Assembly: GCA_030651035.1 (NCBI GenBank) | Contig: JAUSCK010000285.1 | Coordinates: forward strand, 1-36,203 | Direction: 5' to 3' | DNA length: 36,203 bases | From: Elusimicrobiota bacterium | Lineage (GTDB): Bacteria; Elusimicrobiota; Elusimicrobia; Elusimicrobiales; UBA9959 | Part shown: one piece after another, positions 2,024 to 20,722 of the stretch | How positions within the stretch are numbered: position 1 is the stretch's first letter | Layout of the letters: each line of letters begins with the position of its first letter | Program-made: the position numbers and the translations under genes | Notes under the pieces: model-generated | The model's input: the letters and a program-made list of their open reading frames with translations, nothing else | Database searches by the model: none | What the model was told of the DNA's origin: nothing

Positions 2024-2062
2024 ATGTTAAGGATAAATTCCTTAATTTATTACTATGGCTAA
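2024..2062 (+). CDS. Possible 12-residue leader ORF overlapping rplK start
   Basis: An ATG at 2024 follows AAGGAG (2016-2021) at near-ideal spacing. It opens a 12-codon frame ([12 protein letters not shown]) whose TAA at 2060-2062 lies inside codons 2-3 of rplK. rplK itself has no Shine-Dalgarno just before its ATG. A perfect 7-bp hairpin (2027-2033 with 2039-2045, TTAAGGA/TCCTTAA) sits inside the small frame. This looks like a leader that couples ribosomes into rplK. It is an inference from spacing alone; expression is unproven. Confidence 0.4.
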
Positions 2063-2489
2063 AGTTAAACAGATAAAAACATTCATAAAACTTCAGATCC
2101 CGGCAGGCGCCGCCAACCCCGCGCCCCCCGTGGGTCCCGCCCTCGGCCAGCACGGCGTCAACATCATGGACTTCTGCAAGCAGTTCAACGAGAAGACCCG
2201 CAAGCTGGAGCAGGGCGTTCCGATACCCGTGGTCATCACGGTGTTCGAAGACCGCACTTTCACCTTCATCACGAAAATGCCGCCTATGGCCGCGCTTATA
2301 AAGAAGGCCGCCGGGCTTGCAAAGGGTTCAGCCGTCCCCAACAAAGACAAGGTGGGCAAGCTCACCCTGAAGCAGGTTGAAGAAGTCGCCAGGATCAAGC
2401 TGCCGGACCTCAATACGAAAGACGTGAAGCAGGCCATGCAGATGGTGAAAGGCACCGCCCGCAGCATGGGCGTGGACATAATCGATTAA
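2055..2489 (+). CDS. rplK: Ribosomal protein uL11
   Basis: L11 forms the GTPase-associated stalk base with 23S rRNA. It has 144 residues, the usual length. The Pro-rich N-terminal domain contains [20 protein letters not shown] (residues ~16-35) and the RNA-binding C-terminal domain ends [12 protein letters not shown]. The start is fixed by the [18 protein letters not shown] family N-terminus although no Shine-Dalgarno stands at the right distance. The nearest, AAGGAG at 2016-2021, is about 33 bases upstream and seems to serve a small leader frame. rplA follows after a 206-base gap with two repeats. Confidence 0.97.
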
Positions 2490-2576
2490 ACAAATCGAAA
2501 ATCGAAGGTCGAAGATCGAAGATCAAGGAGTTCCTTAATGATTTTCGACTTTCGATTCCCGATTTTCGATTGTTTT
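2488..2576 (+). repeat. Long imperfect inverted repeat rich in ATCGAA
   Basis: The left arm (2488-2524) and right arm (2540-2576) are imperfect reverse complements, about 28 of 37 positions by eye. Each is itself built from repeated ATCGAA-like units. It begins at the rplK stop and would form an ~85-nt hairpin in RNA. The AT-rich composition stands out from the flanking genes. Confidence 0.7.
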
Positions 2577-2631
2577 GACGAGGAAGCGGGTCCTGCCCGC
2601 GCATGAACCTCGGGGGCGCAAGGCTGTGCCA

Positions 2632-2665
2632 GTGCCGTATCAGGAGCTATGCTCATCAGACGGCC
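2632..2665 (+). repeat. 34-nt nested-hairpin repeat, copy R2
   Basis: Near-identical to copy R1 at 1933, but the inner stem is GAGC-TAT-GCTC instead of GCGC-TAT-GCGC, a compensated double change. It ends 30 bases before the rplA ATG and is probably within the rplA leader. Confidence 0.85.
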
Positions 2666-2695
2666 AAGCCCTGGAAATCACAAGGAGAAACTAAA

Positions 2696-3385
2696 ATGGG
2701 AAAGAGAATAGAGAACTTGAAGAAGGGACTGGACCTCGAAAAGAAGTACAGCCTTAAGGACGCCGTGGCCCTGGTGAAAAAAACCGCCAATGCCAAATTC
2801 GACGAGACGCTGGAAGTTCATTTCAAGCTGGGTATAGACGTGAAGCAGTCCGACCAGCAGGTGCGCAGCACCGTCAGCCTGCCGCACGGCACCGGCAAGA
2901 CCAAGAAGGTCGCCGTTATAGCCAAGGGCGAGAAGGAAAAGGAAGCCCAGACCGCCGGCGCGGACATCTGCGGCGGAGCCGAGCTGATAGAGAAGATCTT
3001 CGGCGGTTTCATGGATTTCGACGTCCTCGTGGTCACCCCCGACATGATGAAGGACGCCGCCAAGCTGGGCAAGACGCTGGGCCCCAAGGGACTGATGCCC
3101 AACCCCAAGAGCGGCACCGTCACCTTCGACGTGGCCAAGACCGTAAAGGAACTGAAGGCCGGCCGCATCGAGTTCAAGGCCGACCCCCAGGGGATAGTGC
3201 ATGCCATGGCCGGGAAGATCTCTTTCCCGGATGAGAAGCTTATAGAGAACGTGCAGACCGTGATAGACGCGGTGATGAAGGTGAAGCCGTCCTCTTCCAA
3301 AGGCGTCTATATGCAGTCGGTGTTCTTGTCGTCCACCATGGGCGCCGGGATAGCCGTCGCTGTGGAGCAGAAAACCATAAACTAA
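2696..3385 (+). CDS. rplA: Ribosomal protein uL1
   Basis: L1 binds 23S rRNA at the E-site stalk and often represses its own operon. It has 229 residues, typical. The frame stays open upstream to 2603, but the ATG at 2696 has CAAGGAG seven bases before it and starts the family sequence MGKRIENLKKGLDLEKKY, so it is the start. Recognisable blocks include KFDETLEVHFKLGID, KTLGPKGLMPNPKSGTV (the L1 signature) and FKADPQGIVHAMAGKISF. A terminator follows at once, so rplJ and rplL are not in this transcript. Confidence 0.97.
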   Translation: MGKRIENLKKGLDLEKKYSLKDAVALVKKTANAKFDETLEVHFKLGIDVKQSDQQVRSTVSLPHGTGKTKKVAVIAKGEKEKEAQTAGADICGGAELIEKIFGGFMDFDVLVVTPDMMKDAAKLGKTLGPKGLMPNPKSGTVTFDVAKTVKELKAGRIEFKADPQGIVHAMAGKISFPDEKLIENVQTVIDAVMKVKPSSSKGVYMQSVFLSSTMGAGIAVAVEQKTIN

Positions 3386-3389
3386 CCCA

Positions 3390-3423
3390 AAAAGCCCGCC
3401 GGCCAAACCGGCGGGCTTTTTAA
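3390..3423 (+). terminator. Intrinsic terminator after rplA
   Basis: AAAGCCCGCCGG and CCGGCGGGCTTT form a perfect GC-rich stem with a small loop, ending in a T tract. It separates the ribosomal cluster from hppA. Confidence 0.9.
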
Positions 3424-3454
3424 TAGCCTAAAGTTGAACGTAACAGGAGAAAAA

Positions 3455-5908
3455 ATGAGAAAACTTAAGACTCTTGCCGCCTCCGCTGCTCTTTTAATGG
3501 CTTCCGCGCCCGCTTTTGCCAGCGAGGCGGAGCTGATGATCCCGGACCTGTCCAGCGTGTCCTTCCTGGGCATGACGGGACATAATCTCCTGCTGGGCGG
3601 GCTTGTTATCTGCGTGCTCGGCATGCTTTTCGGTATTCTCCAGTCCATGCAGATCTCGAATCTCCCCGTGCACAAGTCGATGAGAGAGATCTCGGAGCTG
3701 ATCTACGAAACCTGCAAGACTTATCTCTTTACCCAGGGCAAGTTCATAGCCATACTATGGGTGTTCATCGCCTCCATCATGGTGTGGTACTTCAGCCTTA
3801 ACCCGGCGATGACCGCCATGAAGATCTTCATAATCGTGGTCTTCTCCATCGTGGGCATACTCGGCTCCTATTCGGTGGCCTGGTTCGGCATACGCATAAA
3901 CACTTATGCTAACAGCCGCACCGCGTTCGCCGGCCTGAAAGGCCTGCCCTATCCGACCATGCACATCCCGCTCAAGGCCGGCATGTCCATCGGCATGCTG
4001 CTCATCAGCGTAGAGCTGGTAATGATGCTCTTCATCCTGCTCTTCGTGCCGGGCGACTACGCCGGCCTCTGCTTCATCGGTTTCGCCATCGGCGAGTCGC
4101 TGGGCGCCGCGGCGCTTCGTATCGCCGGCGGCATTTTCACGAAAATAGCCGACATCGGTTCCGACCTGATGAAGATAGTGTTCAAGATCAAAGAAGACGA
4201 CGTCCGCAACCCCGGCGTCATCGCGGACTGCACCGGCGACAATGCCGGCGACTCCGTGGGCCCCACGGCCGATGGCTTCGAGACCTACGGCGTGACGGGC
4301 GTGGCCCTGATCACCTTCATCCTGCTGGCGGTTTCCCCCGAAGTATTCATGAGGGGCGGGCTTGACGGAGCCGCGGCGCATGCCGCTTCCCAGAAGGCCC
4401 AGATACAGCTGCTGGTCTGGATCTTCGTGATGCGCATCGGCATGATCGTGACCAGCGCCTTCTCCTACTGGGTGAACGACCTGGTAACCCACTCCATGTA
4501 CGGCGCTTCCAGGAAGTTCAACTTCGAGCACCCGCTCACCATGCTGGTCTGGCTGACCTCGTTCGTCTCCATAGCCATGACCTATGTGCTGAGCTACCTG
4601 CTGATCCCCGAGCTGGCCGGCGACGCCACCCTGTGGTGGAAACTTTCCACCATCATCTCATGCGGAACCATCGCGGGCGCGGTGATACCGGAACTGGTAA
4701 AGGTGTTCACTTCTACCAACTCCGGCCACGTGCGCGAAGTCCTGTCGGCCTCCAAAGAGGGCGGCGCTTCCCTTAATATCCTGTCTGGCTTGGTGGCCGG
4801 CAACTTCAGCGCTTACTGGCTGGGCATGGCCATCATCTTCCTGATGGGCGTGGCTTACCTGGTGTCCAACCTAGGCCTCGGGATGATAATGATCTCTCCC
4901 GCTATCTTCGCCTTCGGCCTGGTGGCCTTCGGCTTCCTGGGCATGGGCCCGGTGACCATAGCCGTGGACTCCTACGGCCCGGTGACGGACAATGCTCAGT
5001 CTGTGTTCGAGCTGTCCATGATCGAGAGCATCCCCGGCATCAAGGAAGAGCTTAAGAAGGATTTCGGCTTCGACGTGGACTTCGAGAGCGGCAAGAAATT
5101 CCTGGAAGAGAACGACGGCGCCGGTAATACTTTCAAGGCGACCGCGAAGCCGGTGCTGATAGGCACGGCCGTGGTGGGCGCGACCACGCTGATCTTCGCC
5201 ATCATCCAGATGCTGGCGGCGAAGTTCGGCACGGTGGGGCCCCAGGGCATCTACGAGGGGCTTTCTATCCTGAACCCGAAGTTCCTGCTGGGTCTTATCA
5301 CCGGCGGCGCTATCATCTTCTGGTTCGCCGGCGCTTCGATGCAGGCCGTAACCACGGGCGCCTACCAGGCGGTGGACTTCATCAAGAAGAACATCAAGCT
5401 GGACAGCACGGTTAAGAAGGCGAACGTGGAGGACTCCAAGAAGGTGGTGGAGATCTGCACGAAGTATGCCCAGAAGGGTATGTTCAATATCTTCCTGGTG
5501 GTGTTCTTCTCGACGCTGGCTTTCGCCTGCCTGAATCACTACTTCTTCATCGGCTACCTGATTAGCATCGCGATCTTCGGCCTGTACGAGGCTATCTTCA
5601 TGGCCAACGCGGGCGGCGCGTGGGACAACGCGAAGAAGCTGGTTGAGACGGAGCTGAACATGAAGGGCACGCCGCTGCACGAGGCCTCCGTCGTAGGCGA
5701 CACCGTGGGCGACCCGTTCAAGGACACCTCTTCAGTGGCCATGAACCCGATCATCAAGTTCACGACCCTCTTCGGCCTCCTGGCCGTCGAGCTGGCCGTA
5801 ACTCTCGATCCGAAAGTGAGCCACATGCTGGCGGCCGTCTTCTTCGCCATCAGCGTAATCTTCGTCTGGCGCTCCTTCTACAGCATGAGGATCCCCGAGA
5901 TAAAGTAA
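3455..5908 (+). CDS. hppA: Membrane-bound proton-translocating pyrophosphatase, K+-independent type
   Basis: It hydrolyses cytoplasmic pyrophosphate and pumps ions across the membrane through about 16 helices. Of 817 residues, the substrate loop has ADIGSDLMKIVFKI, EDDVRNPGVIADCTGDNAGD and an ADGFETYG-like block near residues 240-280. A second acidic block, GGAWDNAKKLVE followed by VVGDTVGDPFKDTSSVAMNP, lies near the C-terminus. The GNTFKA motif carries Lys561 where K+-dependent pumps have Ala, so it should be K+-independent and most likely H+-pumping. The TTG at 3434 is in frame, but ATG 3455 has AGGAG just upstream. Oddly, the protein starts with a signal-peptide-like stretch (residues 1-22, ending SAPAFA). 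Confidence 0.96.
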   Translation: MRKLKTLAASAALLMASAPAFASEAELMIPDLSSVSFLGMTGHNLLLGGLVICVLGMLFGILQSMQISNLPVHKSMREISELIYETCKTYLFTQGKFIAILWVFIASIMVWYFSLNPAMTAMKIFIIVVFSIVGILGSYSVAWFGIRINTYANSRTAFAGLKGLPYPTMHIPLKAGMSIGMLLISVELVMMLFILLFVPGDYAGLCFIGFAIGESLGAAALRIAGGIFTKIADIGSDLMKIVFKIKEDDVRNPGVIADCTGDNAGDSVGPTADGFETYGVTGVALITFILLAVSPEVFMRGGLDGAAAHAASQKAQIQLLVWIFVMRIGMIVTSAFSYWVNDLVTHSMYGASRKFNFEHPLTMLVWLTSFVSIAMTYVLSYLLIPELAGDATLWWKLSTIISCGTIAGAVIPELVKVFTSTNSGHVREVLSASKEGGASLNILSGLVAGNFSAYWLGMAIIFLMGVAYLVSNLGLGMIMISPAIFAFGLVAFGFLGMGPVTIAVDSYGPVTDNAQSVFELSMIESIPGIKEELKKDFGFDVDFESGKKFLEENDGAGNTFKATAKPVLIGTAVVGATTLIFAIIQMLAAKFGTVGPQGIYEGLSILNPKFLLGLITGGAIIFWFAGASMQAVTTGAYQAVDFIKKNIKLDSTVKKANVEDSKKVVEICTKYAQKGMFNIFLVVFFSTLAFACLNHYFFIGYLISIAIFGLYEAIFMANAGGAWDNAKKLVETELNMKGTPLHEASVVGDTVGDPFKDTSSVAMNPIIKFTTLFGLLAVELAVTLDPKVSHMLAAVFFAISVIFVWRSFYSMRIPEIK

Positions 5909-6789: not shown

Positions 6790-6943
6790 TGCGAGATGCG
6801 AAGTCGGGTCCTACCGCAGGGGCAGGAACGAAAAACACGTTCGGCCACACCGTGGCCTCACTCGGTATTCGCCCGGCGCGCTTATGCAAGCGCCGGGCTC
6901 AACGACGGTTTTTCTTATCCTGCCCCCGCGGTCTCCCCTCCGT
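6790..6943 (+). repeat. Structured intergenic element, copy C2
   Basis: Left edge TGCGAGATGCGAAGTCGGGT. The outer stem pairs 6813-6836 with 6908-6932, imperfect near its middle. Hairpin A is GGCCAC-ACC-GTGGCC (6843-6857). Hairpin B is GCCCGGCGC/GCGCCGGGC (6871-6879 with 6890-6898) with loop GCTTATGCAA. Outside the hairpin stems it is nearly identical to C3; inside them most base changes come in paired, compensating sets. The left flank also resembles that of C1 back to a terminator-like hairpin. Confidence 0.9.
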
Positions 6944-6974
6944 ACTCTTATATAGACTGCTCAGCTATCCGTTA

Positions 6975-7299
6975 GGAAATCTTTAAGATGCCAATTTGGC
7001 ATCTTAAAGCGGGGGACGCATTCAAAGTCCCTGCACCGTGTTTTTATGGAGCAGGGTGTCTCGATGCTTTCGAGCGTGTTGAAAAGCAAGCAAGGCAAGT
7101 TAATATCCAGATAATGCGGGCTTTCGTAAAATTGCGTGAACTTCTAAATTCCCATAAGGACCTGACCCGCAAACTTGAGGAACTGGAAAAGAAATACGAC
7201 TCACAGTTCAAGAGCGTCTTCGACGCCATAAAAATGCTGATGACCCCTCCCCCGGCCCGTGACCCGGGCCCCAAAACGATCCCCGGTTTCAAACCCTAA
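6975..7299 (+). pseudogene. Truncated, frameshifted ORF6N-domain gene
   Basis: Homology to the intact gene at 6217 begins at its codon ~62 ([17 protein letters not shown] against RSLRFQFG), about 30 bases after element C2. The first third, including most of the ORF6N domain, is missing. The first frame continues through [18 protein letters not shown] 4-base deletion near 7090 then shifts to the frame that reads [17 protein letters not shown] and on to KTIPGFKP. The two lesions make a functional product unlikely. The tail is well conserved, so the duplication is not ancient. Confidence 0.85.
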
Positions 7300-7333
7300 A
7301 AATGACCCACACTCTATAAAAACACCCATTTGC

Positions 7334-7339
7334 TAGAAT
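7334..7339 (+). promoter_or_regulatory. Likely -10 box for the DarT-like gene
   Basis: TGCTAGAATAT is an extended -10-like sequence 30 bases before the ATG at 7370. No good -35 is visible. Confidence 0.4.
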
Positions 7340-7369
7340 ATCTGTAGCGGGTTAGTGTAGCGGCTTATT

Positions 7370-7876
7370 ATGAATCCAAGCGCATTTTTGGCAAGATATC
7401 GCCCAATTGCTATCTATCATTTCACGGATAGTAGAAATATTCCATCGATTCTTAAGCATGGGATATTGTCAAAAATAGAGTTGGGTGAACAGGTCGTGGG
7501 TGTATATGGATTCGGAGGCAACTATTTAAGTCAAAACCTGGATTCAAAGAAGAATCTATGGGATTACGTGCACTTGTGCTTTACAGAAAATCATCCAATG
7601 GCATATAGGGCACAACAGGATGGCCGAATAGACTGTCTGACCTATATTAAAATCAAGCCTGAAGTTTTGTTGTTGCCGGGGGTTATGGGTTGCGCTACTG
7701 TGGCAAATAAACAATCTTCAGAGATTTTGCCTATAGAGCAAGTCCTCGATAAAATTAATTTTGATGTTATTTATGTCCCAAGGCCGGATTTTTCATCCAC
7801 TGAATATAAAATCGGCGCACGATCGGAAATTTTAGTCCCCAAAAGTATAGATATAAAAAATATCCTAAATTTTTAA
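7370..7876 (+). CDS. DarT-like DNA ADP-ribosyltransferase toxin
   Basis: DarT enzymes (DUF4433) transfer ADP-ribose from NAD+ to thymidine in single-stranded DNA and block replication. This 168-residue protein has the family N-terminal block AIYHFTDSRNIPSILKHGIL (residues 14-33), the central VHLCFTENHPMAYR (67-80) and the C-terminal RSEILVP (151-157), whose Glu153 would be the catalytic glutamate. It is somewhat shorter than typical DarT (about 200). Base composition is clearly lower in GC than the flanking core genes, a sign of transfer. No macrodomain DarG follows; the next gene encodes a cyclotransferase-fold-like protein. Family assignment is from motif recognition; activity is inferred. 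Confidence 0.72.
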   Translation: MNPSAFLARYRPIAIYHFTDSRNIPSILKHGILSKIELGEQVVGVYGFGGNYLSQNLDSKKNLWDYVHLCFTENHPMAYRAQQDGRIDCLTYIKIKPEVLLLPGVMGCATVANKQSSEILPIEQVLDKINFDVIYVPRPDFSSTEYKIGARSEILVPKSIDIKNILNF

Positions 7877-7973
7877 CAACAAGGGGCGGGCCAGGAATCT
7901 TGAGGGAGAAAAGGCAGCAAGAGTTTTTAGTGTTAATGAGTGTTTTTGTAAATAGCCAGAAGGGAAGGTTTAC

Positions 7974-8591
7974 ATGAAAATTGCAATTCTCGGCTGGGGG
8001 TCTTTGTTGTGGGATAATCATCTGTGTTTTGATGAGCAGCATCGTAAGTGGTTGCCGAAGGGGCCTGGGTTAAAACTTGAGTTTTCGCGGGTATCGCTTA
8101 GTAGAGAGAATGCTTTAACTCTTGTTATAGACCCGGTAAACGGAAGTCTATGTAATGTTGCCTATTCTTTTAGTAATCGCAGTAACCCTGATGATGCAAT
8201 ATGTGATTTGAGGTCCCGTGAAGGGACAGTGTTGAATAAGATTGGCTTTTGTTTTGCGAATGGCGCTATAAAGCAAAGTTTTGATTCCAATTCCTTCGAA
8301 AGTATTCAGGTGTGGGCTACAGGGAAAAAAATAGATGTTGTCGTTTGGACGGATTTGCAAAATAATTTTAAAGATAAAAGCATATACAATGAAATGTTTT
8401 CAGTAGAGAATGCAGTTAAGCATATTCAAGCACTATCACCGAAGGGAAAGGCGAAGGCAGCAGAATATGTTTGGCGTGCCCCATCTTTTATCAGTACACC
8501 TCTTAGAAGTGTATTGCAAGGGGAACCATGGTTTCATAACATAGAGAAGGCTAGTGAAAAAAATAGTAATTCGCCGGGTGCATGTCTTTGA
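7974..8591 (+). CDS. Gamma-glutamylcyclotransferase-fold-like protein next to DarT-like toxin
   Basis: The 205-residue protein begins MKIAILGWGSLLWDN, a variant of the YGSLLW substrate-loop signature of the GGCT/ChaC fold. It continues with EFSRVSLSRENALTLVIDP, AICDLRSREGT and VVVWTDLQNNF, a pattern I recall from widespread uncharacterised proteins. Activity on glutathione-like substrates cannot be claimed. It starts 97 bases after the DarT-like gene, same strand and same AT-rich composition. By position it could be the partner or antitoxin, or simply passenger DNA. GGAAGG stands seven bases before the ATG. Confidence 0.6.
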   Translation: MKIAILGWGSLLWDNHLCFDEQHRKWLPKGPGLKLEFSRVSLSRENALTLVIDPVNGSLCNVAYSFSNRSNPDDAICDLRSREGTVLNKIGFCFANGAIKQSFDSNSFESIQVWATGKKIDVVVWTDLQNNFKDKSIYNEMFSVENAVKHIQALSPKGKAKAAEYVWRAPSFISTPLRSVLQGEPWFHNIEKASEKNSNSPGACL

Positions 8592-8663
8592 TATTGACGA
8601 CTGAATGACTGGGGATAATAAGGTGCAAAATAGTCGCTTAGTCGTATGGTTTGGAGGATATTT

Positions 8664-8957
8664 ATGGAAAAGGTTATGTTTGTCGCAGTATTAGTCCTAT
8701 TGATGGTCTTTCAGGGGTGTAATTCTAAAGAGAAGTCTGAAAAAGAGGCGGTGCCAGTGGTTGATAATAGTATTGTTTCCGCTTCTTTTAGTCCTGATGG
8801 TAAAAAAATATTAGTTGCTCATAAGAAATATGTTCTTATCCATGACACTGCTAGCGGAGCAGTCTTAAAAAAAATCTCTGAGAAGACGGAGGATGAAGAA
8901 TTCATTCAGAAATTATTTAGTGATGAGCCTGCTGATAAGATGAAAAATGGAAAATAG
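8664..8957 (+). CDS. Short lipoprotein with one WD40/beta-propeller-like repeat
   Basis: A 97-residue protein with a lipoprotein signal (LVLLMVFQGC, Cys19) and then a single propeller blade pattern, VSASFSPDGKKILVAHKKYVL followed by IHDTASG, and a charged tail. Propeller proteins need several blades, so this is probably a remnant of a longer gene or a very reduced form. ATG 8664 has GGAGG seven bases upstream; the in-frame ATG at 8646 does not. AT-rich like its two upstream neighbours. Followed by a strong bidirectional terminator. Confidence 0.55.
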   Translation: MEKVMFVAVLVLLMVFQGCNSKEKSEKEAVPVVDNSIVSASFSPDGKKILVAHKKYVLIHDTASGAVLKKISEKTEDEEFIQKLFSDEPADKMKNGK

Positions 8958-9015
8958 TGGTGGAAGATTGGGAGTGCTGTTGTCTGGATGACTAATTTGT
9001 AGGGAATGAGGGTAA

Positions 9016-9050
9016 AAAAGGGGCAGGCTACTTTAGCCTGTCCCCTTTTC
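9016..9050. terminator. Bidirectional terminator
   Basis: AAAAGGGGCAGGCTA and TAGCCTGTCCCCTTTT form a ~15-bp stem with a one-base bulge and a CTT loop. The A and T tracts let it work on both strands. It closes the AT-rich island on its right side, just before element C3. Confidence 0.8.
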
Positions 9051-9082
9051 TCCGACATATCAGCATCGTTTCAAAGCGTGCG

Positions 9083-9235
9083 GAGGGGGAGACCGCAGGG
9101 ACAGGAAAAGAAAAACCGTCGTTGAGCCTGCCGGTTGCATAGCCCGGCAGGCGAATACCGAGTGAGGGCACGGTGTGCCCGAACGTGTTTTTCGTTCCTG
9201 CCCCTGCGGTAGGCCCCCGACTGGACATCTCGCGG
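9083..9235 (-). repeat. Structured intergenic element, copy C3 (inverted)
   Basis: Reverse-strand copy of C2. Hairpin A is GGGCAC-GGT-GTGCCC (9166-9180). Hairpin B is GCCTGCCGG/CCGGCAGGC (9126-9134 with 9144-9152). The outer stem pairs 9092-9116 with 9187-9210. The edge CGAGATGTCCAGTCGGGG reads on the minus strand near 9216-9233. No ORF6N gene lies beside it. It fills most of the 359-base gap between the lipoprotein and the DUF218 gene; the remaining 9236-9316 shows nothing further. Confidence 0.9.
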
Positions 9236-9316
9236 ACTTCATTAGCCGTTGTTTTGCGTTCCGGCCCCCGTGGCGCACCCAACACGTAGCGAGCTATTTG
9301 GTATTATTAGCTCTGC

Positions 9317-10069
9317 ATGTTCCTTATTAAAAAGATAATCGCGGCTTTTGTGCTGCCGCCGGGATGCTATGTTGTCTTGCTGGCGTGGGTGGCTTTTTAT
9401 TTAAGGAAGAGGGCGCGGGCGGCGGCTTTGGCGTGCGCGGGGCTTTCGTTTCTGGTCTGGGTTGGGACGACAAAGGTTTTCTGCAATGTGCTGCTTGGGC
9501 CGCTTGAGCGCGCTTATTCGGTCCCGGTGAAGCCGGAGGGGGACGTTATTGTGCTGCTCTGTGGCGGGTTCAGGGGGGGCGGGAAGTCTTTCTCGGCTTC
9601 CGAGCGGCTTGCCCCCGGCACGCTGGAGCGCGTTGTCGTGGCTTTCAAGCTCCAGAAGGATACAGGCCTGCCGCTGCTGATCTCGGGCGGGGCGCCTTTC
9701 TCCGAAGCCCCTGAAGCAGAAGCCGCCGCGGCTTTCCTTAAAGAGCTGGGCGTACCCGAAAACAAGCTGATCACGGAAGAAAAGTCCCGCGACACTAAGG
9801 AAAACGCCCGCTTCAGCCTTAAGATCTGCGATGAGAAAGGGTATAAAAAGATCATTTTGCTCACCTCCGCCTACCATCTGCCCCGTTCCGTACTGCTTTT
9901 CAGCAAGGCAGGAACCGCTGAAATAGTCCCTTTCCCCGTAGCGCGCCGTTCCGGGGGTCCGCGTTTCTTCAACGATTACCTCCCCGGAAGCGGGCCTGAC
10001 AGCAGGCTGGCGCTGAACGAGTACCTGGGCCTGCTGTATTACCGCCTTTATTATTCCTTCTTCTCATAG
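9317..10069 (+). CDS. YdcF/ElyC-family protein (DUF218)
   Basis: Proteins of this family sit in the inner membrane with a cytoplasmic-like Rossmann DUF218 domain; ElyC of E. coli affects peptidoglycan and lipid-carrier metabolism. Two N-terminal membrane segments (about residues 5-27 and 33-53) are followed by the DUF218 domain (~76-225). It contains DVIVLLCGGF, ISGGAP, EEKSRDTKENARF and the SAYHLPRS motif (about 184-191), all typical. The length, 250 residues, is normal. No clear Shine-Dalgarno precedes ATG 9317. It stands before infC where thrS often lies. Confidence 0.85.
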   Translation: MFLIKKIIAAFVLPPGCYVVLLAWVAFYLRKRARAAALACAGLSFLVWVGTTKVFCNVLLGPLERAYSVPVKPEGDVIVLLCGGFRGGGKSFSASERLAPGTLERVVVAFKLQKDTGLPLLISGGAPFSEAPEAEAAAAFLKELGVPENKLITEEKSRDTKENARFSLKICDEKGYKKIILLTSAYHLPRSVLLFSKAGTAEIVPFPVARRSGGPRFFNDYLPGSGPDSRLALNEYLGLLYYRLYYSFFS

Positions 10070-10081
10070 GGGTAAAAAAGG

Positions 10082-10087
10082 TAGAAT
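10082..10087 (+). promoter_or_regulatory. Likely -10 box of the infC operon
   Basis: TAGAAT within GGTAGAATATAAC, 68 bases before the infC start. It is followed by a leader hairpin (GACAGG 10096-10101 with CCTGTC 10110-10115) and a run of six Ts at 10135-10139, which could attenuate transcription. The -35 is weak. Confidence 0.45.
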
Positions 10088-10154
10088 ATAACTCAGACAG
10101 GGGCAAAAGCCTGTCAGGTACCATTTTTTGTCTTAAGTCTACAGGAGGAAGAGT

Positions 10155-10805
10155 TTGAACAACGATAAGAGAGTAAGAGTTAACCGGAATATTACATCCC
10201 CGCAGGTGCGTCTTATAGATATGCACGGGACCATGCTTGGAATTAAACCGCTCATCGACGCGGTGACTATGGCCAAAGGTTCCGGCCTTGACCTGGTGGA
10301 GATCTCCCCCGGCGCCAACCCGCCCGTCTGCAAGGTGATGGATTTCTCCAAGTTCCTCTACGAGAAGGAAAAGCAGGACCGCGAGAACCGCAAGAAGCAG
10401 AAGGCCGGCGTGCTGAAGGAAATCCGCCTTAACCCGCGCATAGCCACCCACGACCTGCAGACCAAGATAAAGCACATAGAACAATTTCTGAAAGAGCATA
10501 ACAAGGTGCGCGTTACCGTGGTGTTCCGCGGCCGCGAGAACCAGCACCGGAACCTCGGAGAAGAAATACTTAACGCCGTGCGCGACCATCTTTCAACCGT
10601 GGGCGCCCCCGAGGGGCGGCCGCAGATGATGGGCAACCGCATGAGCATAATGCTGGCCCCGACGCATGGCAAGCCCGTGCCGGCGGCCGCGAAGCCCGCG
10701 GCGCCCAAGCCCGCCGCGGCGAAGCCTCAGGCTGCTCCGGCCGCGCCAAAGCCCGCCGCGCAGCCGGCCCCCGCTCCCGAGCCGGAGCAGGCCCCGGAAA
10801 CCTGA
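10155..10805 (+). CDS. infC: Translation initiation factor IF-3
   Basis: IF-3 binds the 30S subunit and checks start-codon pairing. AGGAGG (10143-10148) precedes a TTG start at 10155; rare starts are a known autoregulatory trait of infC. Residues 1-75 are the N-terminal domain (INxxITSPQVRLID-like start, then VEISPGANPPVCKVMDF) and ~80-170 the C-terminal domain (KEIRLNPRIATHDLQTK, KVRVTVVFRGRE). Residues ~172-216 are an unusual Ala/Pro/Lys-rich tail absent from most IF-3 proteins. It heads the infC-rpmI-rplT-pheS-pheT block. Confidence 0.96.
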   Translation: MNNDKRVRVNRNITSPQVRLIDMHGTMLGIKPLIDAVTMAKGSGLDLVEISPGANPPVCKVMDFSKFLYEKEKQDRENRKKQKAGVLKEIRLNPRIATHDLQTKIKHIEQFLKEHNKVRVTVVFRGRENQHRNLGEEILNAVRDHLSTVGAPEGRPQMMGNRMSIMLAPTHGKPVPAAAKPAAPKPAAAKPQAAPAAPKPAAQPAPAPEPEQAPET

Positions 10806-10806
10806 G

Positions 10807-10863
10807 CCCCGCACTTTTTCCCGTGCCCGGGCCAAAGTGCGGGGTAAACCCCTTTTAAAGGGG
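10807..10863 (+). terminator. Double hairpin between infC and rpmI
   Basis: An 11-bp perfect stem (10807-10817 with 10834-10844, CCCCGCACTTT/AAAGTGCGGGG) is followed by a palindrome CCCCTTTTAAAGGGG (10849-10863). No long T tract follows the first stem, so it may be a terminator, an attenuator or a processing site. Confidence 0.6.
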
Positions 10864-10876
10864 AGCCGGAAAGTTA

Positions 10877-10882
10877 TATAAT
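10877..10882 (+). promoter_or_regulatory. Consensus -10 (TATAAT) before rpmI
   Basis: A perfect TATAAT 22 bases before the rpmI ATG and just after the double hairpin, suggesting that rpmI-rplT-pheST has its own promoter. The -35 region (TTTAAA near 10854-10859) is poor. Confidence 0.5.
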
Positions 10883-10903
10883 ATTGGATAAGCGAGAAAT
10901 AAT

Positions 10904-11107
10904 ATGCCTAAAATGAAATCCCACAGCGGCGCTAAGAAAAGATTTAGGAAGACCAGCACGGGTAAGTGGCTGCACCGGAAATCCGGCCTGCGCCACCTCC
11001 TGACCGGGATGTCGGCCAAGCGCGGCCGCAATCTTCACACTGTCAAGGTGGAGGAAAAGAACTCCGCCGAAGGCCGCATGCTGAAGGTTTACCTGCCCTA
11101 CGAATAA
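10904..11107 (+). CDS. rpmI: Ribosomal protein bL35
   Basis: A 67-residue basic protein of the large subunit. MPKMKSHSGAKKRFRKTSTG is the family N-terminus; RHLLTGMSAKRGRNL is also conserved. The length is normal. rplT follows 57 bases on. Its expression could come both from readthrough of infC and from the TATAAT element just upstream. Confidence 0.97.
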   Translation: MPKMKSHSGAKKRFRKTSTGKWLHRKSGLRHLLTGMSAKRGRNLHTVKVEEKNSAEGRMLKVYLPYE

Positions 11108-17240: not shown

Positions 17241-18092
17241 TTAATCGTTTATACGCGCAAGCTGGTGAAGGAAGAAGTCCGCGCTCCATGCGCGGAGCCC
17301 CTCCTGCTCGCGCAAAGGCAGGAACCGCTGGACATCATTGCGGGCCGCGGCCCAATCAATGCGCCTGATGGTAGCCGCCATGCATTCCTGAACCCAGCGC
17401 ATGGTCACCGTGAGCTGTTGCCCGGCCCAGGGCCCCTGCTGGTATAAAGCATGGCATAATAGCTCCAGATCGGGTTTGGTCTTGCGCGCGACATACCACA
17501 CAAAGTCATACCAGTCGCGGCCCTTAACATAGGGGCGGCAGAGCAGCGCGTGCAGCTTCAGCCCAAAGCTGGATTCCAGGGACTGCGTAGTCAGGGGCGC
17601 CGTAACGGGGAACGTGAGGTAGCTGGTTGTGAACGTGGAGCCCGCGGGGGGATTGGTGTCTATCTCAAGCTTTATGCGAATCTTGCGGGCCTGATACCGC
17701 TCGAACGGCAGGTCCAGCGCCAGGATCTTGCCGATGGAATCGGTCTTCAGGAACGCTTTCTGAACGGCCGTTTCCGCCTGGGACTTATCTTGCACCTCAA
17801 AAGGAATGCCTTCACGCGCGCAGTCCTTGCGCACGGACTCCAGATAGTCCTGCCAGCGGAAACCCGGGTTGGGCCGCTTGAGCAGGAAATCCAGGTCCTC
17901 CGAAAAACGGTTCATCCCGGCTACGATGCGCAGGCAGGTTCCGCCATGAAACATGGCCTCCGCGAACATGCCGGCGCGCGAGAGGCTGGACAGCACATAG
18001 TGCTGCATGAGTTCCTGCAGCACGTTCTCCTGTTCAACCGGGTTAGCCGGCGCATACTCGCGGATTTTCGCGCTTAATACTTTATCCAGCAT
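17241..18092 (-). CDS. abiEii: AbiEii-type nucleotidyltransferase toxin
   Basis: The toxin of the AbiE type IV toxin-antitoxin/phage-defence system; it is a nucleotidyltransferase, and related enzymes modify tRNA acceptor ends. It has 283 residues. MFHGGTCLRIVAGMNRFSED followed by LDF (residues 48-69) is the GGT...SEDLDF active-site pattern. KIRIKLEIDTNP and LESSFGLKLHALLCRPYVKG then RDWYDFVWY are the typical mid-protein blocks. Its start overlaps the end of abiEi by 11 bases, the classic arrangement. No sign of damage. Confidence 0.93.
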   Translation of the reverse strand: MLDKVLSAKIREYAPANPVEQENVLQELMQHYVLSSLSRAGMFAEAMFHGGTCLRIVAGMNRFSEDLDFLLKRPNPGFRWQDYLESVRKDCAREGIPFEVQDKSQAETAVQKAFLKTDSIGKILALDLPFERYQARKIRIKLEIDTNPPAGSTFTTSYLTFPVTAPLTTQSLESSFGLKLHALLCRPYVKGRDWYDFVWYVARKTKPDLELLCHALYQQGPWAGQQLTVTMRWVQECMAATIRRIDWAAARNDVQRFLPLREQEGLRAWSADFFLHQLARIND

Positions 18093-18741
18093 GGTTCACG
18101 GCTCCTTTCAACCCCTCAAGGTAAGCGTGCACGCGGCGGCTTCGGATGCTGCCCAGAATTTCGTCGAACGCTTCAAAGGAGAGCGCACGCAGATCATCCT
18201 CCTCTATGCGAAGCGACTCAGTCAGATACCCAAGGCCATTGCGGCTCCAGGTGATGTCCTTATTGAGGTAAACCGCGTCGGCAATGGCGCGCAGCGGCGA
18301 AGCGATAAACGCCCACGCGTTGCGGGCAACCTCCACGGCTTCAACCCCGGCTCGCGGCGCGCGCGCCGGCACACGCCGGAAGCTGAATACCCCCAGCGGC
18401 GTGGAGAACTCCCGGCTGCGCCCTACCGTGACGCTGCTCACCTGGTAGACCGCTTCTGGGATCAGCCCGTGATGCGCCAGCGCGGACTCCAGGCTGATAT
18501 GGGATGGGGAATGCAGCACACCGGCCAGCACGAACGGGTGAGGCTCGGACTTTCTATAAGGCGGGCCGAGCGTGAAAAGGCCCGGCTTTAAGCGCAGGAT
18601 TTCACCGGCCTGACAGGCCCGATGCACCAGCAGCGCACGCGCGCCGGAACTGCTGCCGGAAAATAGGTTGCTGATGACAGTTTCATTGAACAGTCCGCCT
18701 GGCGGCGCCAATTTAAAAACTTTCTCGGTAAGGTTTTGCAT
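18082..18741 (-). CDS. abiEi: AbiEi-type antitoxin/transcriptional repressor
   Basis: The antitoxin counteracts AbiEii without direct binding and represses the operon from inverted repeats. It has 219 residues. The N-terminal winged-helix-like part covers ~1-60 (ALLVHRACQAGEILRLKPGL followed by FTLG). The C-terminal domain has HISLESALAHHGLIPE, VYQVSSVTVGRS, FRRVPA and ASPLRAIADAVYLN, all AbiEi hallmarks. An inverted repeat (ATTAC/GTAAT) lies 13-29 bases before its ATG, a fitting operator. It starts at 18741 and reads leftwards into abiEii. Confidence 0.9.
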   Translation of the reverse strand: MQNLTEKVFKLAPPGGLFNETVISNLFSGSSSGARALLVHRACQAGEILRLKPGLFTLGPPYRKSEPHPFVLAGVLHSPSHISLESALAHHGLIPEAVYQVSSVTVGRSREFSTPLGVFSFRRVPARAPRAGVEAVEVARNAWAFIASPLRAIADAVYLNKDITWSRNGLGYLTESLRIEEDDLRALSFEAFDEILGSIRSRRVHAYLEGLKGAVNHAG

Positions 18742-18770: not shown

Positions 18771-18830
18771 CTAGACGCAAGATATTTAACCTGAATTCTG
18801 CAGTTAGAAGTGGTTTCCGAAGCCATGCTA

Positions 18831-18865
18831 GTGCCGCATCAAAGGACTATGCCCCTCACTGTCCG
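18831..18865 (+). repeat. Decayed copy of the 34-nt nested-hairpin repeat (copy R4)
   Basis: GTGCCGCATCA at the left and an inner GGAC-TAT-GCCC resemble copies R1 and R2; the right arm is degraded. It borders the decayed dehydrogenase region. Confidence 0.5.
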
Positions 18866-19172
18866 ACTACACCGACTACGCGAAGCTCAAAGAAGATATT
18901 GAAATAGACCTCTGGGGCACGATAGTCTCGACGAAGGTTTTTACGCGGCGGAAAACAGCAGCATGCCCGGGTGGATGGAAGAAGCTGCAAGCGCGCGCAA
19001 AACGCTCTTGTCGCCCGAATCAGCCGCCGGGAAAATAATAAGCAAATGCAAGGGGAATAAATTCCTGATAACGACCAATTTCGAGATCGCGCTGTTCCGT
19101 TTCCTGAGCAAAGTCCTCCCCGACTTCGCTGTGGCCGCTCTGATGGATACCTCGCTGCCCCGTCCAAAATAG
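18865..19172 (+). pseudogene. Remnant of a short-chain dehydrogenase/reductase-like gene
   Basis: Two frames carry fragments. The first reads DYAKLKEDIEIDLWGTIVST then KVF, like the central INLxG strand region of SDR enzymes. From ~18950 another frame reads SSMPGWMEEAASARKTLLSP, KIISKCKGNKFLIT and ALFRFLSKVLPDF, like the C-terminal tail of sphinganine-reductase-type SDRs. The catalytic SYK region between them is absent, so the gene is deleted and shifted. Assignment rests on pattern memory and is moderate at best. Confidence 0.45.
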
Positions 19173-19219: not shown

Positions 19220-19423
19220 TTACCTGCCGCAGCGGAACCCGATCCGGCCGAACGTGAAGGACGGGGTGTAGCTCGCGAGGAAGTCGAACACCCCGGCGGT
19301 CGCGCTGTTGCCCCAGTCGCCGCCCCGGACCACCGCTTTGGTTGCTGCCCCGCCATAATACTGACCCACTCCATAAAGGTTAGTGTAGTTGGCGTTTGAA
19401 GGGCCGGTAAATATTACCGCTCT
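19220..19423 (-). pseudogene. 3' fragment of a C-type-lectin/FGE-like gene resembling a DGR variable repeat
   Basis: The minus strand reads NANYTNLYGVGQYYGGAATK, then AVVRGGDWGNSATAGVF, DFLASYTPSFTFGR and IGFRCGR, then stop (19220-19222). RGGxW...AGVF...IGFRC is the C-terminal pattern of formylglycine-enzyme/C-type-lectin domains used as variable regions by diversity-generating retroelements. The variable positions (D, G, N, S, T, D, L, S, Y, F, F, G) are almost all NNC codons, as expected if a template with AAC codons was copied with adenine mutagenesis. The frame closes upstream at ~19430, so the body of the gene is missing. No reverse transcriptase or template repeat is in the window. Confidence 0.6.
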
Positions 19424-19550
19424 AAAATAAAAAAGTGATCAGGCCTTGAGGTTGAGCGCTGCAACGGGATGCGGATGGGTCGCGGAAATAGCGCGGGTTT
19501 TTGATATTGAATACGAAATCTTTACAGGCGGGCTGAAGGTTTTGTATCTT

Positions 19551-19591: not shown

Positions 19592-20722
19592 ATGAATCCG
19601 TTCATTTTCGGTGAAGTTGTGCGGGACGCTGATTTTATCGACAGAAAAGAGGAGTTGGAAACTCTTGTGAAGGACCTTTCAGACGGACAGAAGGTGTTCT
19701 TGATCGCGCCGCGCAGGTACGGAAAAACGTCGCTTCTCCTCGCCGCCGCTGAAAAACTTAAAACAAAGGGCGTAAGAGTGATCTATCTGGACCTGTTTAA
19801 AACCGCCTCTGTAGAACAGTTTGCCGCCGCATTGGGCAAAGCCGCGGCTGAAATGAGAAAGTTGGGTTTTGCCGAGGCTGTTAAATTTATCGGGGAGTTC
19901 GTTTCCGGCCTGAGGCCGCAGTTTTCCGTAAATCCGGACGGTTCCTTAAGCCTCGGCGTTGACGCCTCGCCGCCGCAGAAAGAGGTTTTTCAGATGATAG
20001 ATAACCTGCTGGCCTACCCCCAGGAATTAGCTGTCCGGGAAAAGAAACCGGTAGTTGTAATGTTCGACGAGTTCCAGGAAATAGTGAGTATAGGCGGGGA
20101 ACCGCTGGAAAAACTCATGCGCGCGGTAATACAAAAACAGCGCAATGTCGGTTATGTTTTCTGCGGTTCAAAAAAGACGATGATGAACGAAATGGTCTCA
20201 AAAAAATCCCGGGCCTTCTTCGGCATGGGGCCGGTCACACACCTTGAAAAGATCCCCCTTGAATATTTTGAAAAGTATCTTGCCGGAAATTTCGCCAGAG
20301 GTGGTTTTGACTGCCCCCGGGAAACCCTGCGGGCCATCGTCAGCTCCGCCGGCGGCATACCATACTATATTCAATATCTCGCCCACGAACTGTGGGACCT
20401 TAAAGCCGAAGAAAAGAAAATTACGGACGCCGATGTGGAACGGGCCGTAGCGCTGATCGCTAAAAGGAACACGCCGCTTTACCAGAACCTTTGGGAAAAC
20501 CTGCCCCAAACGCAAAAGCGGCTGCTGCAGGGACTGGCCGCAAACCCGGGCGCCGCAGTCTTCAGCGGGGCTTTTATCACCAGATTCCAACTAAATTCTT
20601 CAGCGCTGGTAAAAAAATCTTTAAGCCTGTTGGTATCGAAGGATATTATAGAGAAGGAAGCCGCGGGTTACATCTTTACGGATTATTGGATGGGTGTGTG
20701 GGTGCGGCAGAACTGCTCCTAA
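19592..20722 (+). CDS. AAA+ ATPase of the archaeal-ATPase (ATPase_2) type
   Basis: 376 residues. The start MNPFIFGEVVRDADFIDRKE is typical of this family. Walker A is APRRYGKTS (39-47), Walker B VVVMFDE (154-160), and a sensor-like VFCGSKKTMM follows (near 186-196). A winged-helix-like C-terminal region (~300-376, ending DYWMGVWVRQNCS) is typical. These proteins are found in many prokaryotes, often as lone or mobile genes; their substrate is unknown. GGAG at 19582-19585 precedes the ATG. Upstream palindromes suggest regulation. Confidence 0.82.
   Translation: MNPFIFGEVVRDADFIDRKEELETLVKDLSDGQKVFLIAPRRYGKTSLLLAAAEKLKTKGVRVIYLDLFKTASVEQFAAALGKAAAEMRKLGFAEAVKFIGEFVSGLRPQFSVNPDGSLSLGVDASPPQKEVFQMIDNLLAYPQELAVREKKPVVVMFDEFQEIVSIGGEPLEKLMRAVIQKQRNVGYVFCGSKKTMMNEMVSKKSRAFFGMGPVTHLEKIPLEYFEKYLAGNFARGGFDCPRETLRAIVSSAGGIPYYIQYLAHELWDLKAEEKKITDADVERAVALIAKRNTPLYQNLWENLPQTQKRLLQGLAANPGAAVFSGAFITRFQLNSSALVKKSLSLLVSKDIIEKEAAGYIFTDYWMGVWVRQNCS

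Follow-up and report, generated by a model that had tools for sequence, protein, structure and literature searches.

The window, i.e. the whole 36,203-nucleotide stretch of Elusimicrobiota DNA analysed here, contains on its minus strand (19405-19220) an isolated gene end, which most probably (at roughly 85%) represents the terminal portion (~62 codons) of a gene that encoded a C-type lectin of the FGE subtype and was a target of a diversity-generating retroelement (DGR), now a pseudogene whose template is either lost or located outside the assembly. The overwriting of such targets by adenine-mutagenised cDNA is well established for DGRs (PMC6328139; PMC3521204). According to this scheme, the 3' end of the once intact gene would have been overwritten by cDNA copies of an AAC-rich template repeat, and random bases at the template adenines would have turned about a dozen positions within a fixed scaffold into NNC codons. 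A later deletion or rearrangement would have removed the promoter together with ~270 codons from the start of the gene. The matching template would have disappeared from the genome or have remained outside the assembly. Both the DGR-dependent writing of the stub itself in its own lineage and the order of the losses are what we infer.

The stub, the 3' portion of a C-type-lectin/FGE-like gene, encodes GPSNANYTNLYGVGQYYGGAATKAVVRGGDWGNSATAGVFDFLASYTPSFTFGRIGFRCGR followed by a stop. It is read as the preliminary description had it, on the minus strand with the stop at 19222-19220, and all the codons listed there are present. The following parts were distinguished:

19223-19336, minus strand: variable repeat of 38 codons (AVVRGGDWGNSATAGVFDFLASYTPSFTFGRIGFRCGR), aligned without gaps to the templates of relatives
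19220-19222, minus strand: stop codon TAA, directly 3' of the variable repeat and at the same place in the homologue on contig C256
19337-19405, minus strand: invariant lectin-domain lead-in (GPSNANYTNLYGVGQYYGGAATK), a gene-body remnant aligned with the C256 frame from residue 292 onward
19406-19438, minus strand: open, non-homologous 5' extension (SLFYFRAVIFT) behind an in-frame TGA, with the truncation point of the gene located here

The variable repeat sits at the very 3' end of the C-type-lectin gene, ending at the stop codon. The stub is homologous to the C-terminal ends of genes on contigs C256 and C180 of the same genome, the C256 homologue being the best relative there (58% identity at the protein and 74% at the DNA level). 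The intact C256 frame has 353 codons, from which residues 292-353, i.e. the last 62 codons, were the only ones matched in the window, while the gene body of the other ~270 codons is missing. The homology spans 19405 to 19219, the extent up to 19423 given previously being slightly longer, and none was found upstream of 19405 in the stub frame. A tblastn search of the window with four full-length homologues recovered the lectin end alone, in agreement with the earlier claim that the rest of the gene is gone. Because only the last 62 codons of C256 are matched and an intact homologue exists, the window copy appears to be a severed gene end, with a wrong contig join being possible at this point of an assembly consisting of 320 contigs. 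The stub frame is open for 72 codons. A Pfam scan assigned no domain either to the stub or to the C256 protein.

The stub is placed within a ~850-base stretch free of intact genes, flanked by an AbiEii gene and the AbiEi-like gene paired with it (17241-18741) on one side and by an ATPase_2 gene (19592-20722) on the other. The same stretch also contains further debris and parts of two dispersed repeats, a setting that fits a graveyard of gene remnants. Two adjoining short blocks at 18784-18858, TTAACCTGAATYCTGCAGTTAGAAGNGGTTTCC and CGAAGCYATGCTAGTGCCGYATCAAAGGNCTATGCCCCTC, are each dispersed separately over several contigs of the genome and matched no Rfam family at gathering score. The plus-strand debris at 18860-19170 resembles, by eye, the C-terminal part of a short-chain dehydrogenase in broken form. 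An AbiEi-like gene, also recognised by eye, is found beside the lectin-end genes of contig C180 as well (locus L042, 544-1702), possibly by coincidence. An undisturbed version of the site was not found using synteny with the neighbouring 5'-nucleotidase gene, which was present in only one relative.

The main evidence for a DGR origin came from the templates of relatives. A search among 341 genomes of the phylum with the template of genome G035 as a query identified further AAC-rich copies in G150, G155, G197 and G232. Altogether, this template type (AVIRGGNWNNDANAGVFAFNANNAPSNVNTNIGFRCGR) occurred at six loci, distributed over five genomes of the phylum besides the source genome (two in G035 and one in each of the remaining four). 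Each of the six has a DGR-type reverse transcriptase (RT) close by, its motif IGNLTSQ being encoded on the template strand 0.5-1.5 kb further downstream. In a gapless alignment with the closest template (contig C221 of G035), the window copy differed at 19 of the 27 template adenines and at 11 of the 87 other bases (Fisher p = 2e-8). When the adenine labels were shuffled within codon positions, 19 mismatches were not reached in any of 20,000 permutations (mean 8). Comparison with three other distinct templates gave p values from 8e-7 to 7e-5. All four distinct templates belong to other genera and the true parent template of the window was not found; the mismatch bias toward adenines was strong but not exclusive, as might be expected when the template compared is not the parent. 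Considering codon positions 1 and 2 only, 17 of the 25 template adenines were changed, compared to 6 of the 51 other bases; thus, the first and second bases at template adenines are saturated, while the third-base C is kept in 10 of the 11 AAY columns.

The two G035 loci (C221 and C23; L049 and L050) are cis DGRs with the same lectin end, fixed positions and mutable columns as in the window. Their own template/variable pairs differ at 21 positions, 17 of them template adenines, in C221 and at 17 positions, 16 of them template adenines, in C23. In contrast to the window, which has nothing but the variable end left from a target that was truncated, both retain the template and an RT with the SQ motif. 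An Avd-like gene was also recognised by eye in both of them.

The codon composition of the stub pointed in the same direction. The 11 columns occupied by AAC or AAT in the relatives' templates read GAC, GGC, AAC, ACC, CTC, AGC, TAC, TTC, TTC, GGC and CGG in the window, i.e. 10 of the 11 are NNC, similar to the 9 of 11 in the verified G035 variable repeats and to other members of the family. This fraction exceeded both the 32% NNC of FGE-type genes outside the lectin-end region (binomial p = 8e-5) and the 15 of 27 in the remaining stub codons (Fisher p = 0.04). The NNC signature of adenine-specific errors, as proposed previously, is supported. Taken alone, the codon pattern is insufficient, since four ordinary FGE paralogues in the same genome reach 19 of 32 NNC codons (59%) at eight equivalent columns; simple arithmetic against this paralogue rate gives about p = 0.03, which is suggestive. 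The last codon of the window copy is AGG, as in 23 of 27 variable-repeat-like ends, while the templates have AGA or AGT (5 of 5), a likeness in sequence to the IMH versus IMH* difference for which the functional IMH role is only putative. Because of its adenine-biased mismatches and the AGG last codon, the window copy would represent a variable repeat and not a template.

The high NNC content of the ordinary paralogues, together with the genus members in which such ends occur but a DGR RT does not, might also be explained by a decayed FGE-like end that never was diversified by a DGR, with selection on the binding surface and codon bias generating the NNC codons. Such an origin is improbable, since the phylum contains templates of this type next to DGR RTs, the third-base C is conserved next to saturated first and second bases, and the last codon is of the variable-repeat type. 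The preliminary description had named, as evidence against a DGR, the lack of a template and RT in the genome combined with homologues free of adenine bias; this was looked at, and the homologues do show the bias and two DGR RTs do exist in the genome. The orphan variable-repeat end recognised in that description is thereby borne out, both by the templates of relatives and by the DGRs elsewhere in the genome.

The source genome encodes three RTs. One is of the group II intron type (above the NCBIfam cut-off and with a YADD motif), and the other two, on contigs C180 and C310, are of the DGR type with the (I/V/L)GxxxSQ motif; neither of these two is located in the window, consistent with the previous statement that RT and template are absent from the vicinity. 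The C180 DGR (locus L042) has the appearance of a complete cis element with an FGE-type target:

6913-11068 of locus L042: the whole DGR
9069-9191: variable repeat
9310-9663: avd
9932-10054: template repeat, encoding GLRGGSWNNNATNARVSDRNNAGWTNTNRNNNVGARVASTP
10085-11068: RT

Its template and variable repeat differ at 18 positions, 17 of them template adenines. Three tandem FGE-type genes beside it (2047-5758) have the same kind of end as the stub, unlike the C180 template, and the one of them that was scanned contained the Pfam domain FGE-sulfatase (PF03781). The C310 DGR (locus L044, 7528-7637 and 9659-9768), likewise complete in appearance, has a DUF1566/Lcl_C-like target, with 15 of the 16 template/variable mismatches at adenines. 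Its template, which adjoins the DUF1566/Lcl_C-like gene, specifies an end of another kind and, beyond its cis target, has a single distant match on C320 (76%), in which non-adenine sites differ too. An Lcl_C gene also adjoins the lectin gene of C256. Being of other sequence types, the C180 and C310 templates were both ruled out as a parent of the stub. A DNA search up to E 10 found no parental template in the assembly, which is 96.4% complete in 320 contigs and may have left a matching template unassembled; a guessed template, searched at the protein level (E 10), led to no AAC-rich copy other than the C180 template, again of the other sequence type (E 0.03). The genome-wide check proposed previously therefore succeeded for the RT and failed for the template. 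Of the parts of a complete DGR, neither a matching template nor an intact target gene was found for the stub. As for a conserved hairpin or motif 3' of the variable repeat, the window flank shared only AGGTAAA with C256.

Remote DGR targets are known (PMC8144416; PMC10907252), and trans diversification has been reported for Thiohalocapsa PB-PSB1 (PMC10907252). A live remote target, with the stub still being overwritten in trans from a template in the unassembled part of the genome or on a mobile element, would be compatible with the two DGR RTs, one of them accompanied by Avd, and with the 62 codons free of stops and frameshifts. In these studies remote targets were recognised by a match to a template of the genome at non-A sites (PMC8144416; PMC10907252). 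The absence of such a match weakens this reading of the stub; moreover, both resident DGRs have templates of other sequence and the gene body is missing. The trans-acting version put forward earlier is, accordingly, very improbable. A silent cassette donating its variable end to the C256 and C180 paralogues by gene conversion, also suggested earlier, can hardly be considered: although the stub corresponds to exactly that 3' end which would be exchanged, and the genome offers four full-length paralogues, it is a single copy outside any cassette array. Moreover, its DNA is only 74-78% identical to that of the closest paralogues and departs from them at non-variable sites as well, which rules out recent conversion. 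Most likely, the stub is now an inert, template-less DGR target.

Lectin ends of the window's type were detected in 10 of the 32 genomes of the genus, including the source genome, and a template of this type in none of the 32. The assemblies of the nine other end-carrying genomes lacked a DGR RT: six (G008, G011, G013, G022, G023 and G027) had no RT match at all and three (G012, G016 and G030) had only group II-type RTs, with the draft-bin status of these genomes being a serious confounder for the absence of any DGR part. The ends in G027, G012 and G023 retained NNC in 10-11 of the 11 columns; those in G013, G022 and G011 had 6-7 and may never have been DGR targets. The pattern fits DGRs having been lost repeatedly while the presumed targets survived. 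It is possible, albeit doubtful, that DGR targets in this genus generally outlive their retroelements, the ends being frozen variants that date from a lost or mobile DGR and the stub one discarded copy. A gene on C35 of G034 (L052, ~5425-5586) has a DGR-type lectin end out of frame with the gene body, which may indicate either a further target in decay or an error in sequencing. Relatives of the stub were found neither in viral contigs nor in GTDB genome contigs (67-aa query), and the C256 protein had no relative among phage records.

In the FGE-type lectin end and the AAY-encoded variable sites, the stub resembles the FGE-subtype C-type-lectin DGR proteins TvpA of Treponema, TaqVP of Thermus and Mtd of a phage (PMC6328139), despite a low sequence similarity and the lack of an intact protein; a family profile gave weak matches to TvpA (2Y3C, E 0.5) and SUMF2 (E 0.23). 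It also resembles those targets of Thiohalocapsa PB-PSB1 that have no RT or template nearby, in a genome likewise with several DGRs, with the difference that some variable ends of PB-PSB1 match a remote template at all non-A sites (PMC10907252).

The stub is a relic of an already known kind and its consequence for the window itself is small; what remains of interest are the orphaned targets across the genus. Adenine-directed hypermutation was recognisable in a relic of 114 bases by means of templates borrowed from relatives. The lineage frequently carries DGR-type target genes whose templates and enzymes are mostly missing, and a loss, mobility or trans action of the DGRs would be testable by comparison of strains.
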